Part shown: positions 18,512 to 63,795 of the stretch, in pieces | Position numbering within the stretch: position 1 is the first letter of the stretch | How the letters are laid out: the number at the start of each line of letters is the position of its first letter | Assembly (NCBI RefSeq): GCF_030145815.1 | Contig: NZ_JAIXHL010000003.1 | Span: 124,001 to 188,000 of the forward strand | DNA from: Sphingomonas sp. | Lineage (GTDB): Bacteria; Pseudomonadota; Alphaproteobacteria; Sphingomonadales; Sphingomonadaceae | Direction of reading: 5' to 3' | Length of the DNA stretch: 64,000 nt | The notes under the pieces: model-generated | Told to the model about the DNA's origin: nothing | Database searches by the model: none | Seen by the model: the letters and a program-made list of their open reading frames with translations, nothing else | Made by a program: the position numbers and the translations under genes

Positions 18512-19479
18512 TGCGTATGCTCCTGCGCATAGGCCGCCGCCGCGCCGTAGAGGCCGGGCTGGGGGTGGGTGATCAGCTTGACGGGGATCGAGGACATCAA
18601 TCCCTGGAAGCGCCCCTTTGCGACGAAACGCTGTGCGAATCCAGAGCCGAGCAGGTGATCTTTGAGCCGGAAGCCAAGGCCGCCCGCGATCACCACGCCG
18701 CTCGGGCCGTGTGCGAGGGCGAGGTCGCCCGCGACCGCACCGAGGCTGAGGCAGAAACGGTCGAGTGCGGCGACGGCGAGGCTGTCCTTGCCCTCCAGCG
18801 CCAGCGTCCAGATTTCCTTGTCGGACAGACTGTGCACCGCCTTGCCCTCAATCTGCGCCAGCGTTTCGTAGATCGGGACGATGCCGGGGCCGGACACGAT
18901 TCGCTCCGCCGAGACGCGGGTGTAGGTCGAGCGCAGGCGACGCACGAACGCGTCCTCGATCCCGTCGAGCGGGGCGAAATCCATATGCCCGCCCTCGGTC
19001 GCGATGACGTGATAGCCGCCATTGGGGGGACGGAAGACCTGTGCGACGCCAAGGCCGGTGCCGGGGCCGCACACGGTGATCGATCCCTTTTCCGGCAACG
19101 CTGTCATCGGGCCGCACAGATGCACGAAATCGCTGTCGGGCAGCTGGGCGACGGCATGGCCGATCGCGCCGAAATCGTTGATGAGGCTGTAGCTGTCGAC
19201 CTCAAGCCGTTCGCGGATCAGCGGCGGGCGGATGATCCAGGGGTTGTTGGTGAGCTTGATCAGCTCGTCATTGATCGGCGAGGCGATGGCGATCGCCGCA
19301 GCGCGCGGCATCGGACGGCCGAATTCGCGCGCCGATGCCTGCCAGGCGAGCTGGAAGCTGGCGTGATCGGCGGTCTTTTGCGTGACCGGATCGCCCAGCG
19401 AAACGACGCGGCCATTTTCGACCTCGGCAATGGCGAAGCGGGCATGGGTCCCGCCGATATCGACCGCTACGACTTCCAC
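18508..19479 (-). CDS. glk: Glucokinase
   Basis: Phosphorylates glucose with ATP to feed glucose 6-phosphate into the pathway. At 323 residues it matches the proteobacterial GlcK family: VVAVDIGGTHARFAIAEVEN (phosphate binding) at the start, LINDFGAIGHAVAQLP with the catalytic Asp, CGPGTGLGVAQV, and VVIAGGLGFRL near the C-terminus. It is coupled to eda by ATGA. A palindromic repeat lies between it and edd. Confidence 0.96.
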   Translation of the reverse strand: MEVVAVDIGGTHARFAIAEVENGRVVSLGDPVTQKTADHASFQLAWQASAREFGRPMPRAAAIAIASPINDELIKLTNNPWIIRPPLIRERLEVDSYSLINDFGAIGHAVAQLPDSDFVHLCGPMTALPEKGSITVCGPGTGLGVAQVFRPPNGGYHVIATEGGHMDFAPLDGIEDAFVRRLRSTYTRVSAERIVSGPGIVPIYETLAQIEGKAVHSLSDKEIWTLALEGKDSLAVAALDRFCLSLGAVAGDLALAHGPSGVVIAGGLGFRLKDHLLGSGFAQRFVAKGRFQGLMSSIPVKLITHPQPGLYGAAAAYAQEHTQ

Positions 19480-19502
19480 TCAGTTTCCCCTCAATATCGA
19501 TC

Positions 19503-19595
19503 GTCATTCCCGCGAAGGCGGGAATCCATTTGCCTTTACGCTGAGGTGCTTTCGCAACGGCAGCCAGAATGGATCCCCGCCTTCGCGGGGATGAC
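19503..19595. repeat. Intergenic palindromic repeat between edd and glk
   Basis: Two 26-bp arms, 19503-19528 and 19570-19595, are inverted copies with two mismatches (core CCCGCGAAGGCGGGA). It is the same family as the elements at 8567 and 34344. In the edd-glk mRNA it would form a long hairpin that could stabilise or partly end the upstream message. Confidence 0.85.
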
Positions 19596-19624
19596 GGTGG
19601 TAGTATTTATGACGAACGCGCGGG

Positions 19625-21448
19625 TCACAACCCAGCCGCAGCCAGCATTGCCGATCCGCCGGCCTCGGCCTCGCTGGCGCCGTGGCGCATCATTGCGAAC
19701 AGCTCGCGGCCCGTGCCCAGATCGGGCGGCGGGGCGGCGGCGAGCTCGCGGGCGTCCCACTCCGCTGCATCGACCAGCGCGGTGAGGTCGCCGGTTTCGG
19801 CACAGAGGCGGACGATGTCGCCGTCGCGCAGCTTGCCGATCGGGCCGCCACCAAGTGCTTCGGGCGAGAGGTGGATCGCCGCCGGGACCTTGCCGCTCGC
19901 ACCCGACATGCGCCCGTCGGTGACGAGTGCGACGCGGAAACCGCGGTTCTGCAGGACGCCGAGCGGCGGGGTGAGCTTGTGCAGTTCGGGCATGCCGTTG
20001 GCGCGCGGCCCCTGGAAGCGCACAACGACGACGACGTCGCGGTCGAGTTCGCCGGCCTTGAACGCGTCCTGCACCGCCTGCTGCGTTTCGAATACGCGGC
20101 ACGGCGCTTCGATCGTCCAGCGGTCGCGCTCCACCGCGCTCACCTTGATGCAGGCGCGGCCGAGATTGCCGGCGAGGATGCGGAAGCCGCCTTCCTCGGA
20201 GAAGGGCGCGTCGATGGTGCGCACGATGCTGTCATCGCCGCTGGCCTCGCCATGATCGGCCCAGGCGAGCGCGTCATTCTCCAGCACCGGCTTCTTGCCA
20301 TAGGCGTCGAGGCCGTCGCCGAAGGTGGTCAGCGTGTCGCCATGGAGGATGCCGCCCTTGAGCAGCTCACGGATCACGAAGGTCGGGCCGCCCGCATCCT
20401 CGAACCCGTTCACGTCCGCCGAGCCGTTGGGATAAACGCGGGCGAGCAGCGGCACGCTGCGCGACAGGCGGTCGAAATCCTCCCAGTCGATCAGGATGCC
20501 CGCCGCACGCGCAATAGCGGGCAGGTGGATGAGGTGGTTGGTCGATCCGCCGGTGGCGAGCAGCACGATCGCCGCGTTGACGATGGCGCGTTCGTCGACA
20601 ACCTCACCGATCGGGCGGTAATCGTCGCCGTCCCAGCCGATCTGGGGCAGCCGCTGAACCGCCGCCTTGGTCAGTTCCTGACGCAGCTTCGTGCCGGGAT
20701 TGATGAAGGATGCGCCGGGCACGTGGAGGCCCATCGCCTCCATCATCATCTGGTTGGAATTGGCGGTGCCGTAGAAGGTGCAGGTGCCCTTGCCATGATA
20801 GGCGGCGATTTCGGATTCGAGCAGCTCCTCGCGGCTCGCCTTGCCCTCGGCATAGAGTTCGCGGACGCGCGCCTTTTCCTTGTTGGCGATGCCGGTGCGC
20901 ATGGGGCCGGCCGGGATCATGATCATTGGCAGATGGCCGAAGCGCAGCGCGCCCATCAGCAGGCCGGGAACGATCTTGTCGCAAATGCCGAGCAGGGCGG
21001 CACCCTCGAACGTGTTGTGGCTGAGCGCCACCGCCGTGGAGAGCGCGATGGTGTCGCGGCTGAACAGCGACAACTCCATGCCCGAATAGCCCTGCGTCAC
21101 GCCGTCGCACATGGCGGGGACGCCGCCTGCGACCTGTGCAGTCGCGCCCGCTTCCAGCGCCCAGACCTTCATCTGTTCGGGGTAACGGTAATAGGGCGCG
21201 TGCGCCGACAGCATGTCGTTATAGGCGGTCACGATCCCGATATTCATCCGGTTCGCGGGCTTCATCGCGTCGCGCTGCTCGTCGGTGCCGGCATAGGCGT
21301 GGGCGAGGTTGGCGCAGCCGAGGCCACGGCGGCTGACACCGCCTTCGCGCTGCTGCGTCATCAGATCGCGATAGGCGGTGCGGCGTTCTTTCGAGCGCTC
21401 GATGACGCGGTCGGTGACGGCGGCGATTTCGGGGTGGAGCGTCGGCAC
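19625..21448 (-). CDS. edd: 6-phosphogluconate dehydratase
   Basis: Converts 6-phosphogluconate to KDPG. At 607 residues it is a typical Edd of the IlvD/Edd iron-sulfur dehydratase family. Cluster Cys lie in [35 protein letters not shown] and [15 protein letters not shown], and [20 protein letters not shown] is near the C-terminus. It starts 5 bp after pgl. Edd rather than IlvD is supported by length, motifs and the neighbouring zwf, pgl, glk and eda. Confidence 0.97.
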
Positions 21449-57757: not shown

Positions 57758-58152
57758 CCAGAGGGCCGGGCGGCCGCGTTGCATGAAAGTGCACCGAGGA
57801 AAGTCCGGGCTCCACGGAAACACGGTGCCGGGTAACGCCCGGCGGTCCCGGTTCGCCGGGGTCAGGGAAAGTGCCACAGAGAGCAGACCGTCCACTGCCC
57901 TTCGGGGTAAGGACAAGGGTGAAAGGGTGCGGCAAGAGCGCACCGCGCGACCGGCAACGGAAGCGGCACGGCAAACCCCACCGGGAGCAAGATCGAATAG
58001 GGACCGCGCATGGGGAGTTCCGCCCCGCGGTCCGGGTTGATTGCTTGAGCCCCCATGCAAATGCGGGCCTAGAGGAATGGTCGCCTATCGCGCGCACCTC
58101 TCCGCAAGGGGAAAGGGCCGCGTGGACAGAACCCGGCTTACAGGCCCTCTGG
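57758..58152 (+). ncRNA. rnpB: RNase P RNA (catalytic RNA)
   Basis: The end helix P1 is CCAGAGGGCC at 57758 paired with GGCCCTCTGG ending at 58152. The universally conserved segments are present: GAGGAAAGTCCGGGCTCCA near the 5' end, ACAGAGAGCAGACCG in the middle, and ACAGAACCCGGCTTA near the 3' end (P4 partner of the first). The length of about 395 nt is normal for a type A RNA. It cleaves the 5' leader from tRNA precursors. It is convergent with the DAHP synthase gene 20 bp away. Confidence 0.96.
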
Positions 58153-58172
58153 CACTTTCCCCTAGGAGTGGC

Positions 58173-59756
58173 TTACGCCGCTTTGCGCCGCTCGCTCATT
58201 TCCTCGTTCAGCATTTCGGCGAGCAGGAAGGCGAGTTCCAGGCTCTGGCCCGCGTTGAGGCGCGGGTCGCAATGGGTGTGGTAGCGATCGGCGAGGTCGT
58301 GTTCGCTGACGTCGATCATGCCGCCGGTGCATTCAGTGACATTCTGCCCGGTCATTTCGGCATGGATGCCGCCGGCATAGGTGCCCTCCGCACGGTGGAC
58401 GGCGAAGAAGCCGCGCACTTCGGCGAGGATGCGATCGAACGGGCGGGTCTTGTAGCCGTTCGCGGCCTTGATCACGTTGCCGTGCATCGGGTCGCAGCTC
58501 CACACCACCGGATGTCCTTCGCGCTTCACCGCGCGGATCAGCTTGGGCAGGCCCTCCTCGATCTTGTCATGGCCATAGCGGGTGATCAGCGTCATTCGGC
58601 CCGGGGTGCGGGTCGGGTTCAGCGTGTCGAGCATGCGCAGCAGCGCGTCGGGCTCAAGGCTCGGGCCGCACTTCATCCCGATCGGGTTGCCGATGCCGCG
58701 CAGGAATTCGACATGCGCCGACCCGTCGAAGCGGGTGCGGTCGCCGATCCACAGGAAGTGCGCGCTGGTATCGTACCAGTCGCCGGTGAGGCTGTCCTGC
58801 CGGGTCAGTGCCTGCTCATAGGGCAGGAGCAGCGCCTCATGGCTGGTATAGAAATCGGTGCGCTTGAGCTGCGGCACGGTTTCGGGGTTGATCCCGCACG
58901 CTTCCATGAAGTCGAGCGCCTCGCCGATCCGGTCGGCGACATCGGCGAACTTGTCGGCCCACGGGCTGCGGCCCATGAAATCGAGCGTCCACTTATGCAC
59001 CTGATGCAGATTGGCATAGCCACCGCTGGCAAAGGCGCGCAGCAGGTTCAGCGTGGCCGCCGACTGGGTATAGCCGCGGATCATCCGCTGCGGATCGGGG
59101 ATGCGCGCTTCGGGGGTGAAGGCGATGTCGTTGACATTGTCGCCGCGATAGCTGGGTAGCTCGACGCCATTGATTGTCTCGGTATCCGCAGAACGCGGCT
59201 TGGCGAATTGGCCCGCCATCCGGCCGACTTTCACGGTCGGCAGTTTCGACGCGAAGGTTAGCACGACCGCCATCTGCAGGATCACACGGAAGGTGTCGCG
59301 GATGTTGTTCGGGTGGAACTCCGCAAAGCTCTCGGCGCAATCCCCGCCCTGCAGCAGGAACGCCTCACCGCGCGACACACGGGCCAGCTCCTGCGTCAGC
59401 GCGCGCGCCTCGCCCGCGAACACGAGCGGGGGGAAATTCGACAGCGTATCGGTCGCGGCAGTCAGCGCGGCGCTGTCGGGGTAAATCGGAAGCTGCCGTG
59501 CCTCGGCCCGGGTCCAGCTGTCAGGGGTCCAGTCCATCGCCTGCTCCAAATTGCGGACATGGACATACCAGTCCTGATGATGTGCGATCCCGTTCGCCGC
59601 GATCTGGTTGAGAACGGCGGGAGAGGCCCGCTTGCCGTCCTCTTCCCAGCCTTGAACGGTCGACCCAGGCGTGTCGAACCACGCGCCAAAGGCAGCGCGG
59701 GACATGGAGCGTTCCTCGCGGAAACGGCGGATTTTGGAACCGGCTAACGTCGTCAT
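58173..59756 (-). CDS. XRE-like helix-turn-helix fused to class II DAHP synthase
   Basis: A 527-codon frame with two parts. Residues about 1-60 are a Cro/XRE-like DNA-binding domain ([20 protein letters not shown], then [20 protein letters not shown]). Residues 74-527 are a full-length class II (plant-type) DAHP synthase, which joins PEP and erythrose 4-phosphate to start the shikimate pathway. It shows [15 protein letters not shown] with the metal Cys, [20 protein letters not shown] and [14 protein letters not shown]. An internal ATG (59537) at the classical synthase start has GGAG six bases upstream, so an enzyme-only form may also be made. The first start at 59756 has only weak AAGG. Two inverted repeats lie just upstream. 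Confidence 0.9.
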
Positions 59757-59765
59757 GGGGTGGCC

Positions 59766-59782
59766 TTACCCGCGCTGGGTAA
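59766..59782. promoter_or_regulatory. Operator-like inverted repeat 1 before HTH-DAHP synthase
   Basis: TTACCC-GCGCT-GGGTAA on the plus strand is a perfect 6-bp inverted repeat with a 5-bp spacer, ending 10 bp from the start codon at 59756. It matches a second copy at 59802. It is a good binding site candidate for the fused XRE-like domain. Confidence 0.6.
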
Positions 59783-59801: not shown

Positions 59802-59818
59802 TCACCCGTTTGGGGTAA
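59802..59818. promoter_or_regulatory. Operator-like inverted repeat 2 before HTH-DAHP synthase
   Basis: TCACCC-GTTTG-GGGTAA on the plus strand has the same half-sites and spacer as repeat 1 with one mismatch, 36 bp centre to centre away. It lies between the synthase gene and the divergent gene at 59903, so it could influence both. Confidence 0.55.
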
Positions 59819-59902: not shown

Positions 59903-60328
59903 ATGATCCGTCTCGTCCTCATCGCGTCGCTGGCCAGCTCCCCCGTGATGGCGCAGGAACAGGGCGGCGCCGATAGCAGTGCGCCGCCTCAACGCGTGCG
60001 CAGCGTGCTGCTTTACGGCGAGGAATCCTGCCCCAAGCCGGAGAGCGCGGACGAAGTGGTGATCTGTGCCCGCCCCGGCGACTCCCCGTTCCGCATTCCA
60101 AAAGCGCTGCGCAAGACCGAGCCGGGGCCCGAGGGCACGAGCTGGGTGCGCCGCGCCGAACTGGTCGATGAGGTCAATCGCGTTACCCTGCCGGGCAGCT
60201 GCAGCCCGATCGGCAGTTATGGCCAGAGCGGCTGCACGATCCGGATGCTGCAGCAGTGGAAGGCGGAGATGAAGGCGAAGAAGGACGAGGAAGCGGCAAT
60301 GCCGCGCGGTGCCGAACTCGACGACTAG
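59903..60328 (+). CDS. Secreted hypothetical protein
   Basis: A 141-residue exported protein with a signal peptide (MIRLVLIASLASSPVMAQEQ). The mature part has several Cys (EESCPKPES, VVICARPGDSPF, LPGSCSPIG, SGCTIRML) that could form two disulfides, and ends in a charged helix. GDSPFRIPKALRKTE is reminiscent of a small family found in sphingomonads, whose function I do not know. AGGAGG lies a few bases before ATG. It is divergent from the DAHP synthase and its stop abuts the trpE stop with no gap. Confidence 0.7.
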   Translation: MIRLVLIASLASSPVMAQEQGGADSSAPPQRVRSVLLYGEESCPKPESADEVVICARPGDSPFRIPKALRKTEPGPEGTSWVRRAELVDEVNRVTLPGSCSPIGSYGQSGCTIRMLQQWKAEMKAKKDEEAAMPRGAELDD

Positions 60329-61843
60329 TTATTGGCCAAAACCGGGCTCCGCCGCTCGGCTCACGGCTTCGCGCGCGGCGGCGAACAGCGCGCCCGCCTT
60401 CGCCTCGCATTCGCGCTGCTCATAGGCAGGGTCGCTGTCGGCAACGATGCCGGCGCCAGCGGTGACGTGCATCGTGCCGTCTTTCACGATCGCGGTGCGC
60501 AGGACGATGCAGCTGTCCATCGACCCGTCGGGGGAGAAATAGCCGACGCCGCCGGCATAGGGACCGCGCTGGTCGCGTTCGAGTTCGGCGATGATCTCGC
60601 ACGCGCGCACCTTTGGCGCGCCGCTGACGGTGCCGGCGGGGAAGCCGGCAAACAGCGCGTCGAGCGCATCGGCATCGGGGCGCAATCTGCCCACCACGTT
60701 CGACACGATGTGCATGACATGGCTGTAGAATTCGACGGTGTAGCTGTCGGTAACCTTTACCGACCCCGCCTCTGCCACCCGGCCAACATCGTTGCGGCCA
60801 AGGTCGAGCAGCATGAGATGCTCGGCGCGCTCCTTCGCATCGGCGAGCAGGCTGTCGCGGTTCGCCACATCTTCCGCGGCATCCTTGCCACGCGGGCGGG
60901 TACCGGCGATTGGGCGGATCGTCACTTCGTCGTCGCGGACGCGGACGAGGATTTCGGGGCTCGATCCGGTCAGCGCAAAGCCGGGCAGGTCGAGGAAATA
61001 GAGGAAGGGCGAGGGGTTCACCCGGCGCAGCGCGCGATACAGCTCGATCGGCGGCAGCGTGAAGGGCGCGGTGAAGCGCTGGGCGAGAACGACCTGGAAG
61101 ATGTCGCCGGCGGTGATGTAGTCCCGCGCCCGGTCGACCATGGCGGCATAGTCGCTGGCCGGCACGACCGGTTGCGGCACCACGTCCGCCGGATCCGCCG
61201 TGAAGCGAGGCGGGAGCGGGGCGGCGGCGAGGCGGGCGGCGGTTGCCTCGATCCGATCGGCAGCGGTGTCGATCTGCTGCTGGGGATCGCGCGCTGCGTC
61301 GGGCCAGATCGGTGATACGAGGAACAGCGAGTCCGCCAGCCGGTCAAAGATCAGAATGACGGTCGGACGCACGAAGATCATGTCGGGCAATTCGAGCGCG
61401 TCGTTGGCGGCGCGGGGCAGGGTTTCGACGAGACCGATCGTCTCATAGCCGAAATAGCCGACCAGGCAGGCCAGCGCCCGGGGCAATTCGGCCGGAACGT
61501 CGATGCGGCACGACTGGACAAGCGCCCGGAACGCGTCGAGCGTCGGTGCATCCGCCGGGACGAACGCGTCGCGGTCGGTCAGCCAGTTCGAATTGACCTC
61601 CGCCGCTTGTCCCTGGGCACGGAAGACGAGATCGGGGGCGAGGCCGATCATGCTGTGGCGGCCGCGCACCGTGCCGCCCTCCACCGATTCCAGCAGAAAG
61701 TCGCCGCGGCCCGGCTCGATCAGCTTGAGCGCGGCGGCGACCGGGGTGTCGGTGTCGGCCAGCTGGCGCCGCCAGATCAGCGCCGGACGCCCGGCGGCGA
61801 GCTCCGCGCGGGCGGTGTCGAGCCCCTCAATCCCCCCGCGCAT
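60329..61843 (-). CDS. trpE: Anthranilate synthase component I
   Basis: Makes anthranilate from chorismate with the amidotransferase TrpG. The 504-residue protein shows an N-terminal Trp-binding region (LLESVEGGTVRGRHSMIGL) and the chorismate-binding core (FLYFLDLPGFALTGSSPEIL, RPIAGTRPRGKD, LLDLGRNDVGRVAEAGSVKV, GTVSGAPKVRACEIIAELE). ATG 61843 is used; TTG 61852, overlapping the ppiD stop, is possible. No trpG follows: the next gene is convergent. Confidence 0.95.
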   Translation of the reverse strand: MRGGIEGLDTARAELAAGRPALIWRRQLADTDTPVAAALKLIEPGRGDFLLESVEGGTVRGRHSMIGLAPDLVFRAQGQAAEVNSNWLTDRDAFVPADAPTLDAFRALVQSCRIDVPAELPRALACLVGYFGYETIGLVETLPRAANDALELPDMIFVRPTVILIFDRLADSLFLVSPIWPDAARDPQQQIDTAADRIEATAARLAAAPLPPRFTADPADVVPQPVVPASDYAAMVDRARDYITAGDIFQVVLAQRFTAPFTLPPIELYRALRRVNPSPFLYFLDLPGFALTGSSPEILVRVRDDEVTIRPIAGTRPRGKDAAEDVANRDSLLADAKERAEHLMLLDLGRNDVGRVAEAGSVKVTDSYTVEFYSHVMHIVSNVVGRLRPDADALDALFAGFPAGTVSGAPKVRACEIIAELERDQRGPYAGGVGYFSPDGSMDSCIVLRTAIVKDGTMHVTAGAGIVADSDPAYEQRECEAKAGALFAAAREAVSRAAEPGFGQ

Positions 61844-61848
61844 CGCGA

Positions 61849-63795
61849 TCAATTGCCGCCCGTCGCCTGACCGCTCAACTGCGCCTTCAGCGCGGCGATG
61901 GCGGCTTCGTTGCGCTTGACCTTTACCGCCTTGCGCGCGGCGGCGGCGAACTGTTCGACATATTCGTTGCCGATCAGCTGGCCCAGCTGGCCGCGGGTCT
62001 GGCCGATCAGCGCGGCGTTACCCTTGGCATTGCCCTCTTCGATGTCGTCGAGCTGGACGATCCAGTAGCCGCCGCGCTCCGGCGCGGGGATCGCCTTGGC
62101 CTTCTTCTCGGCCATGCTGAACATCAGGCGCACCGGCGGGGGCAACTGGTCGCCCATCTGGGCAAGCTGACCGCGCGAGGCATCAAGCGGCTGAATCGCG
62201 GGCAGGGTGAGGCCGCTTTCCTTCATCGCCTGGGCGATTGGCATGCCCTTGCTCAGTTTGGCGACGATCGCATTGGCGGCCTTGCGCGCGCCGTCGAGTT
62301 GACGGCTGCGGACGAGGTCGTCGGCGACCGTCGGGCGGATTTCGGCGAGGGGGCGCGGGGCGGCGGCGACGACGCGGTCGGTCTTGACCAGCGCAAAGGC
62401 GCCTTCGCTGCCCAGTGCGACCAGCTGCGGATCGTCGGTCGGCTCCATCGAAAAACCGGCTTGGGCGATCTGGGCGAGCGTGGGGTCCGGCGCCGTTTCA
62501 CCGCCGGTCGTGGCGCGACCATCGGGGAAGAGCGGGGCGCTGGTTTCGGCCTTCAGCTTCGATCCGGCGACCAGTTCGTCGAAGGTTGCGTTGCCGGCGA
62601 TCTCGCTGTCGATCTTGGCGCGCACATCGGCCAGCGCCGTGGCGAGCTTGGTCTTGGCGATGGTTTCGGCGAGTTCGCCGCGGACCTGATCGAGCGACTT
62701 GCCGGCGACCTGTTCGATCCCCTCGACCTTGACGATGTGCCAGCCGAGTTGCGAGCGCAGCGGGCCGACTACCGTGCCCTGTGCTCCGGCAAAGGCAGCG
62801 TTGGCGATTGCGGGGCTGCTCGCGCGGGCAAAGGCTTCCTTCTCGGCGTTGGGCACGGTCGAGGCCTGCAGACCGGCGGCCTTTGCAGCATCGGCCATCG
62901 ACGTGCCGGCCTTGACCTTCGCCGCAATCGCCTTCGCCGCGTTTTCATCGGCGACGATGATCTGCGCCAGATTGCGGCGGGTGGTGGCGGCATATTGCGC
63001 CGCGTTCTTCTTATACTCGGCGGCGATCTCCGCCTCGGTCGCCTTGGCGCCGGCCTCGAACTGGGTGGGCGTCACCACGGCGTAACGGACCACGCGGCGC
63101 TCGGGCAGCGTGTAACGACCGACATTCTTCTTGTAATAGGCCTGAAGCTCCGCCTCGGTCGGCGGGTTGCCGGGAGCAATTGCGCCGATCGGCACATAGC
63201 CGACCGAGCCCTTGCGCCGTTCCAGCATCAGCGAAGCATAAGGCAGCGCGAGTTCCGCCGGGACCGGGCCCGGGTTGGCGATCGGCGCCATCAACCACTG
63301 GACCAAGGTTTCGCGGCGGATGTCGCTGCGCACCTGCTCCGCGGTGATCCGCTGTTCGGACAGGAACTGGTCGAAGCGCTGCTGGCTGAACTTGCCGTCG
63401 AAGCCCTGGAACGCCGGGATCGACGCGATCTGTCCGTCGATCGCGGCGGGGGAGACGACCATGCCGTGCTCGGCGGCATATTCCTCCAGCGCCATGCCGT
63501 CGATCACCTGGTTCAGCACCTGATCGAACCCGCCGGTGCGGACAAACTGTGCCATGTCGAGCATCGGCTGTTGCTGACGGACGCGCTCCAGCGCGTTGTT
63601 CAACCGGTCCTGCATTTCCTGCTGGGTCAGCTTCTTGTCGCCGACCTGGACCAGCGCGCCGTTCGCCGAGGGACCGCCGACGCCCAGATTCTGCACGTCC
63701 ATCATCGCAAAGCCGACGCCCAGTGCCACCAGCAGCAGCAGGGCAACGATCTTGCCGGGGGTCGAGAAGATGATGCGGCGGAAATTGGTGAGCAT
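61849..63795 (-). CDS. Peptidyl-prolyl isomerase PpiD-like periplasmic chaperone
   Basis: A 648-residue membrane-anchored protein that helps newly exported proteins fold near the Sec channel. The N-terminus (MLTNFRRIIFSTPGKIVALL) has one membrane helix. A SurA-N-like helical chaperone domain covers about 45-200 (FVRTGGFDQVLNQVIDGMAL). Parvulin-like domains follow, with VVGPLRSQLGWHIVKVEGIE as the clear parvulin signature near residue 345. A long C-terminal part completes it. It lies directly upstream of trpE. Confidence 0.92.
   Translation of the reverse strand: MLTNFRRIIFSTPGKIVALLLLVALGVGFAMMDVQNLGVGGPSANGALVQVGDKKLTQQEMQDRLNNALERVRQQQPMLDMAQFVRTGGFDQVLNQVIDGMALEEYAAEHGMVVSPAAIDGQIASIPAFQGFDGKFSQQRFDQFLSEQRITAEQVRSDIRRETLVQWLMAPIANPGPVPAELALPYASLMLERRKGSVGYVPIGAIAPGNPPTEAELQAYYKKNVGRYTLPERRVVRYAVVTPTQFEAGAKATEAEIAAEYKKNAAQYAATTRRNLAQIIVADENAAKAIAAKVKAGTSMADAAKAAGLQASTVPNAEKEAFARASSPAIANAAFAGAQGTVVGPLRSQLGWHIVKVEGIEQVAGKSLDQVRGELAETIAKTKLATALADVRAKIDSEIAGNATFDELVAGSKLKAETSAPLFPDGRATTGGETAPDPTLAQIAQAGFSMEPTDDPQLVALGSEGAFALVKTDRVVAAAPRPLAEIRPTVADDLVRSRQLDGARKAANAIVAKLSKGMPIAQAMKESGLTLPAIQPLDASRGQLAQMGDQLPPPVRLMFSMAEKKAKAIPAPERGGYWIVQLDDIEEGNAKGNAALIGQTRGQLGQLIGNEYVEQFAAAARKAVKVKRNEAAIAALKAQLSGQATGGN

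Follow-up and report, generated by a model that had tools for sequence, protein, structure and literature searches.

The locus described here raises the question of why a class II DAHP synthase in Sphingomonas should begin with a helix-turn-helix (HTH), and whether an enzyme built in this way could control transcription, and if so of which genes. The window, by which we mean the whole stretch of DNA that was analysed (64,000 nucleotides), contains the gene on its minus strand, divided as follows:

58173..59756, minus strand: HTH-DAHP synthase fusion gene (class II), 527 codons plus stop
59559..59756, minus strand: Cro/XRE-type HTH, residues 1-66, recognition helix at about residues 31-40 (Pfam HTH_31, AlphaFold2, Foldseek)
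59538..59558, minus strand: linker, residues 67-73 (AlphaFold2; pLDDT below 50 over residues 68-89)
58176..59537, minus strand: class II DAHP synthase part, residues 74-527 (Pfam, NCBIfam, alignment with 5uxm)

The initial annotation had described an HTH running in frame into a complete class II DAHP synthase, and this was borne out by a single frame that begins with ATG and stays open for 527 codons with zero internal stops, and by the Pfam domains found in it. The enzyme domain DAHP_synth_2 (PF01474) was matched over residues 76-513 (E 5e-208; profile positions 1-438 of 438), and the NCBIfam model DAHP_synth_II (TIGR01358) scored 697.2 bits against a cut-off of 614.7, which places the protein in the class II family. 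Residues 74-518 aligned with the solved class II synthase 5uxm as best match (E 1.8e-197). Compared with the solved enzymes 5uxm and 2b7o (AroG), from Pseudomonas aeruginosa and Mycobacterium tuberculosis, respectively, the fusion differs in its N-terminus, since those chains have no counterpart of the HTH and the matched stretches start after it. Residues C140, H425, E467 and D497, the likely metal ligands by comparison with the M. tuberculosis enzyme, were invariant in a 34-row alignment, and the catalytic domain is predicted to be intact with its active-site residues kept. No second class II DAHP synthase was found in the genome, and the single match to a class I model, the only candidate from that family, proved to be a KDO8P synthase; the fused gene therefore encodes the only DAHP synthase that was detected. 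In the AlphaFold2 model of the full-length protein, residues 1-66 were confident, residues 68-89 were not, and the enzyme part was poor. Downstream, an RNase P RNA of the bacterial class A (window 57758-58156, plus strand, 280 bits) lies tail to tail with the fused gene, with 16 bases between the ends.

The distribution of the fusion was examined in a comparison set of 46 fused and 64 unfused loci, including 30 from a search of 37 Sphingomonas genomes, in which 13 genomes matched the whole query, one matched residues 2-330, 19 matched the enzyme part only and four gave no match. In a search of genome contigs, fused genes made up 33 of the best 80 of 591 loci, a ratio of fused to unfused that does not represent prevalence, and they came from Sphingomonas, Stakelama and Sphingosinithalassobacter. 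The initial annotation had proposed conservation across sphingomonad genomes as a check, and had named a hidden frameshift, or two separate genes in homologues, as findings that would count against the fusion. The frame was kept in all 46 fused loci, representing 42 distinct coding sequences, by which a sequencing error or frameshift as the cause of the fusion is ruled out, and a tblastn search of the 64 unfused loci found neither a separate HTH gene nor a relic of one (best E 0.17). The gene tree, built from 104 distinct rows of which 42 are fused and 62 unfused, is only partly resolved, needing five state changes of which strongly supported branches force only one, and therefore a single gain with losses and a few gains would look alike on it. 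One genome (G026) carries an intact fused gene at 18850-20430 and a second copy (C1:3913923-3915503) that matches in three overlapping pieces in different frames.

As for the HTH itself, the Pfam model HTH_31 matched residues 6-53 with E 2.4e-4 and 21.8 bits, which is under Pfam's 27-bit cut-off. AlphaFold2 run on the first 72 residues (17 aligned rows) returned a five-helix HTH fold with a mean pLDDT of 92.8 and predicted helices at residues 4-15, 20-26, 31-40, 46-54 and 60-64. When this model was compared by Foldseek, the top neighbours were mostly XRE DNA-binding domains, among them P22 c2 on its operator (E 0.026), HigA and the N-terminal domain of CapH, each with an E above 0.01, and no neighbour reached E 0.001. 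We argue from the fold, together with the operator described below, that the HTH is a divergent member of the XRE/Cro group. Across the 42 distinct fused coding sequences the pooled dN/dS was 0.17 for the HTH, 0.44 for the linker (residues 67-78) and 0.14 for the enzyme, and pN/pS was 0.27 for the HTH versus 0.20 for the enzyme; the HTH is under purifying selection as a protein.

Three further elements lie upstream of the long start codon:

59766..59782, no strand assigned: putative operator O1, TTACCC-N5-GGGTAA, perfect, at -26 from the long ATG, the sole perfect copy in the 4.66-Mb genome
59787..59792, minus strand: -35-like element TTGCAT, 10 bp upstream of O1, with a TTGC-like element at about the same place in both enzyme families (DAHP synthase and the NAD synthetase discussed below)
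59802..59818, no strand assigned: putative operator O2, one mismatch, 36 bp upstream of O1 (pattern scan)

Scanning the window for TTACCC-N5-GGGTAA with up to two mismatches returned two matches, both inside the 146 bp before the fused gene (shuffle mean 0.28; 2 of 100 shuffles reached two). As would be expected of a Cro-like repressor, all 46 fused loci had the palindrome in a set position ahead of the gene, between -31 and -24 from the long ATG (34 perfect, eight with one mismatch and four with two); when distinct promoters only were counted, it was present in 42 of 42, 32 of them perfect. The other sequence of the same loci contained two sites in 706,716 bp, and the 250 bp examined upstream of the unfused genes contained none (0 of 64). 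A separate draw of 14 loci (12 of them from new genomes) yielded HTH and synthase motifs in every case, together with a site at -26 to -29 that had no more than one mismatch. Further upstream, 29 of the 46 fused loci had another site (-70 to -55, up to two mismatches), 33-36 bp from the first, and 17 lacked it; some operators were asymmetric or carried two mismatches. In 23 fused genomes, the fused gene accounted for all 19 perfect sites, and 22 of these genomes had a copy there with no more than one mismatch, the exception being G004, whose site (locus L007) has two mismatches. At up to one mismatch, 35 of 55 sites in these genomes were at the fused gene, and the 20 found elsewhere were fewer than the 65 of a reversed-pattern control. 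Since the palindrome is restricted to the fused gene, the comparative evidence points to a dedicated self-operator.

It had been suggested in the initial annotation that the enzyme could regulate its own or other shikimate genes. The first part of this suggestion is strongly supported, on comparative grounds, by the presence of the palindrome at fused genes and its absence from unfused ones, and by a corresponding palindrome in 37 of 37 NAD synthetase fusions; the second part was not supported, as the perfect sites all lay at the fused gene and the one-mismatch sites elsewhere fell below the control. A protein that regulates the whole shikimate/tryptophan pathway would be in keeping with the nearby trpE (anthranilate synthase component I, 60329-61852), but the same counts speak against it, as does the position of the one further one-mismatch site in this genome, inside a long coding frame that is glycosidase-like by eye, and we regard such a role as highly improbable. 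A wider regulon was rejected at the stringency used, operator sites elsewhere being fewer than in the control. Across the 146-bp intergenic region from the fused gene lies a divergent frame of 141 codons (window 59903-60328, plus strand), which by eye begins like a signal peptide and matched nothing in Pfam; this frame, too, could respond to the operators.

The position of the operator bears on the direction of control. A TTGC-like element precedes the operator by 9-10 bp in both fusion sets, with the best-kept T present in 95 and 97% of rows and the G and C in 57-67%. The sigma-70 consensus scan reported no promoter here and the terminator scan no terminator; it is therefore from the spacing of the TTGC-like element only that an overlap of operator and promoter is read. 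With this spacing, the operator would fall after the -35 position and before the start codon, and transcription would begin near the long ATG, so that the message of the long form would perhaps be leaderless. Such a placement predicts repression by occlusion, and it is because of the operator position that we deduce repression rather than activation.

We consider it very probable that the HTH-DAHP synthase is a bifunctional enzyme-repressor, a trigger enzyme that negatively autoregulates its own gene. In the model that we infer, which comprises DNA binding, repression, oligomer pairing, production of a short form, a phage origin and modulation by substrate or end product, the Cro-like HTH on the synthase would bind TTACCC-N5-GGGTAA operators between the -35-like element and its own start codon, and once enough fused enzyme is present its own promoter would be blocked. 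The enzyme part would supply the oligomer that pairs two HTHs on the palindrome, whose half-sites are 11 bp apart, or about one helical turn, and the upstream O2, where present, may permit cooperative binding.

A second start inside the fused frame was also examined, and two elements define it:

59544..59547, minus strand: Shine-Dalgarno-like GGAG before codon 74, six bases before the internal ATG (sequence)
59535..59537, minus strand: internal ATG, codon 74, start of a predicted enzyme-only form of 454 residues

The earlier proposal of an internal ATG with GGAG six bases ahead, giving a product of 454 residues, was confirmed in its coordinates, and among the 42 distinct fused genes 38 have retained an in-frame ATG immediately ahead of the enzyme part; these genes are related by descent and do not represent 38 independent events. 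A GGAG stands ahead of the ATG in 36 of these 38, in 34 of them at the same offset. The residue preceding the conserved glutamate is variable among the 38 genes (T, L, V, A and others), and the base before the glutamate codon is G in 92% of them versus 221 of 1195 in the enzyme body, which argues that selection acts on the internal ribosome site. Since GGAG is kept while the preceding residue varies, two products are likely, one of them the short enzyme-only form, which would add activity or join mixed oligomers with fewer HTHs. Four fused genes (L047, L049, L063 and L065) are without the internal ATG; in three of them the linker stretch has no ATG, GTG or TTG, and in L063 there are two GTG codons slightly upstream. 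Since the genes without the ATG keep the HTH and the operator, the long form probably carries the enzyme function in them. We give almost no credence to the converse reading, in which the short enzyme only is made and the HTH codons are a remnant or do no more than tune translation as a leader: it would suit the retention of the internal ATG and GGAG in most fused genes, but it has to contend with the purifying selection on the HTH as a protein, with the HTH and operator kept in the 4 of 42 distinct fused genes that have no internal ATG, and with the operator missing before 64 of 64 unfused genes.

A related HTH was found on a second enzyme. An HTH profile search of 397 genomes of the family, with 15 or 19 first-look candidates scored per genome in such searches so that counts are lower bounds, gave matches in at least 74 genomes. 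The matched frames comprised at least nine of the size of the DAHP synthase fusion, at least 60 of 762-1050 amino acids (in at least 15 genus groups) and at least seven shorter ones, and among the matches listed no genome had both fusion sizes. All 43 long-frame loci that were fetched encode the HTH followed by a glutamine-dependent NAD synthetase (blastp), as exemplified by L161 (L161:2016-4331; NCBIfam NF002730, 1036.6 bits):

L144-L159, L161-L166, L169-L171 and L180-L197: HTH-NAD synthetase loci, in genus groups other than those of the DAHP synthase fusion, counted by frame size

The HTH of these proteins is 38-45% identical to that of the window, and a different palindrome, GTATCC-N5-GGATAC, precedes the gene in 37 of 37 distinct NAD synthetase fusion loci (32 perfect, four with one mismatch and one with two), at -26 or -27 in 33 of them and at -21, -25 or -29 in the rest. 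Neither palindrome occurred within 400 bp of unfused NAD synthetase genes of the long type (0 of 8), and it was present in the three fused genes of the same set. The NAD synthetase fusion genomes contained, among the matches listed, five extra perfect sites, all inside long coding frames and four of them in one conserved frame that is TldD-like by eye. Thus, a different HTH of the same family pairs with a different palindrome of identical geometry in the same place. In the alignment, the differences between the two types include two positions of the recognition helix, where S32 and Q35 of the DAHP synthase type are replaced by R and Y, respectively, in the NAD synthetase type; in L063, a single case, S32T (together with P30Q) coincides with a symmetric change of the operator in both arms to TTACTC/GAGTAA. 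The two enzymes that gained a related HTH are neighbours in other families of the order, where no more than 800 bp separate the gene for class II DAHP synthase from that for a shorter NAD-synthetase-like protein, on the same strand, in 15 of 19 genomes (G038-G040, G043, G045, G046, G048, G049, G052-G055 and G057-G059; absent in G041, G042, G047 and G050).

Stand-alone relatives of the HTH, about 70-125 residues long, were found in viral contigs and prophage-like regions (L282-L285, L178, L179 and L160). A divergent CI-like HTH gene stands beside L283, L284, L285 and L178, and a gene of the phage DNA primase family lies downstream of L282, L283, L284 and L178; these relatives occupy the cro position of phages. 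With the HTHs on DAHP synthase, those of L282 and L285 share TVQGWEE(D/E)GKR and an identity of up to 64 and 63%, respectively; the prophage forms L178 and L179 are nearer the NAD synthetase type, with identities of up to 49 and 47%. In L282, L284 and L285 a C-terminal tail that is cysteine-rich by eye takes the place that the enzyme has in the fusion. A fully paired palindrome was present at one of six stand-alone HTHs, namely L285, where CTACCCGTTATGGGTAG (CTACCC-N5-GGGTAG) is located at -27 behind CTTGCC. Palindromes with five of six pairs at -25, -27 and -29 of L282, L283 and L178, respectively, carry little weight, as by our own estimate such palindromes are expected by chance in 150 bp more often than not, and L284 and L179 had no palindrome of matching kind. 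Among plasmids no relative of L160 was found; among annotated phages L178 had no match, and L160 as query gave distant matches in 35 records at less than 60% identity. XRE matches from other Alphaproteobacteria (L172-L176) look by eye like CI or like unrelated regulators, and not like enzyme fusions. The fusion is like the phage Cro and P22 c2-type repressors in its five-helix XRE fold and in the palindrome at its own promoter, and differs in that those repressors are stand-alone proteins, whereas here the HTH is fused to a chromosomal housekeeping enzyme.

In the simplest history, a phage promoter-operator-cro unit would have been captured just ahead of the enzyme's coding sequence. The HTH and operator, probably with the promoter, would have been taken from a phage immunity region, the stop codon of cro would have been lost, and the enzyme's own start and ribosome site would survive inside the fused frame. 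A related capture would have taken place in front of NAD synthetase, and two separate captures are likely, a number that the HTH tree, with its 72 columns and its long phage branches that drew a warning, cannot prove. Tentatively, one may go further and propose a portable phage operator-cro cassette that was captured at least twice independently and fused to different biosynthetic enzymes, each becoming a dedicated self-repressor with a nested enzyme-only form and still recognising related phage operators. The fused enzyme might also face the phage, binding incoming operators of the donor type and dampening the cro promoter as a resident immunity factor. One phage contig with a nearly identical operator and recognition helix would fit such a role; however, no stand-alone phage or prophage locus at hand has the exact host operator, two scans of viral contigs with exact patterns of the promoter-operator arrangement each found a single stretch, with no HTH frame after it, and the conservation of the operator at the enzyme gene marks the host gene as the main selected target. 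We therefore think an immunity function unlikely.

Enzymes that double as transcription factors are few, and their origin has mostly been guessed. BirA and NadR are enzymes with a DNA-binding domain that act as repressors, and the DNA-binding families of PutA, BirA and NadR differ from that of the HTH described here. Compared with these trigger enzymes, which are different enzymes, the present fusion has close phage counterparts of its HTH and operator, an apparent target in its own gene alone, and related HTHs on two unrelated enzymes. According to one report, PutA joins catalysis with repression of its own operon, and it is like the fusion in having a catalytic and a DNA-binding domain in one chain and in repressing genes of its own pathway (PMC6978683). 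As an enzyme that represses its own operon, PutA (PMC6978683) also offers a precedent for a refinement of negative autoregulation in which operator binding by the HTH is confined to a particular catalytic or allosteric state (for example when Phe, Tyr or Trp is bound, or when PEP or E4P is absent), so that transcription reports aromatic demand. This refinement would draw on an intact enzyme domain with invariant likely metal ligands, in the sole DAHP synthase detected, and we hold it to be a possibility somewhat short of an even chance, given that the low-confidence, fast-evolving linker offers no obvious allosteric path and that a related HTH on an unrelated enzyme fits a plain concentration sensor at least as well. 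In BzdR, as described in PMC3602430, an XRE-type HTH is linked to a shikimate-kinase-like domain that senses benzoyl-CoA, so that here too an HTH of this type is joined to a shikimate-pathway enzyme fold. Its authors consider that the domain could take on a regulatory role only by losing its enzyme activity; the kinase-like domain has lost its activity, whereas the synthase described here keeps its predicted catalytic residues and is the sole copy detected (PMC3602430).

We found no description in the open-access literature of a DAHP synthase or an NAD synthetase that carries a fused HTH, and as far as can be told the HTH-DAHP synthase is new among enzyme-repressors; the natural series that leads from a phage regulator to the fused enzyme is unusually complete. 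For two unrelated enzymes, genes with and without the fusion exist today alongside matching operators and phage relatives that stand alone, and it can therefore be tested directly how a working enzyme recruits a DNA-binding domain. The two HTH types and their two palindromes provide a small, clean code for XRE recognition. DAHP synthase is the entry point of the shikimate pathway, and its control should therefore set aromatic flux.
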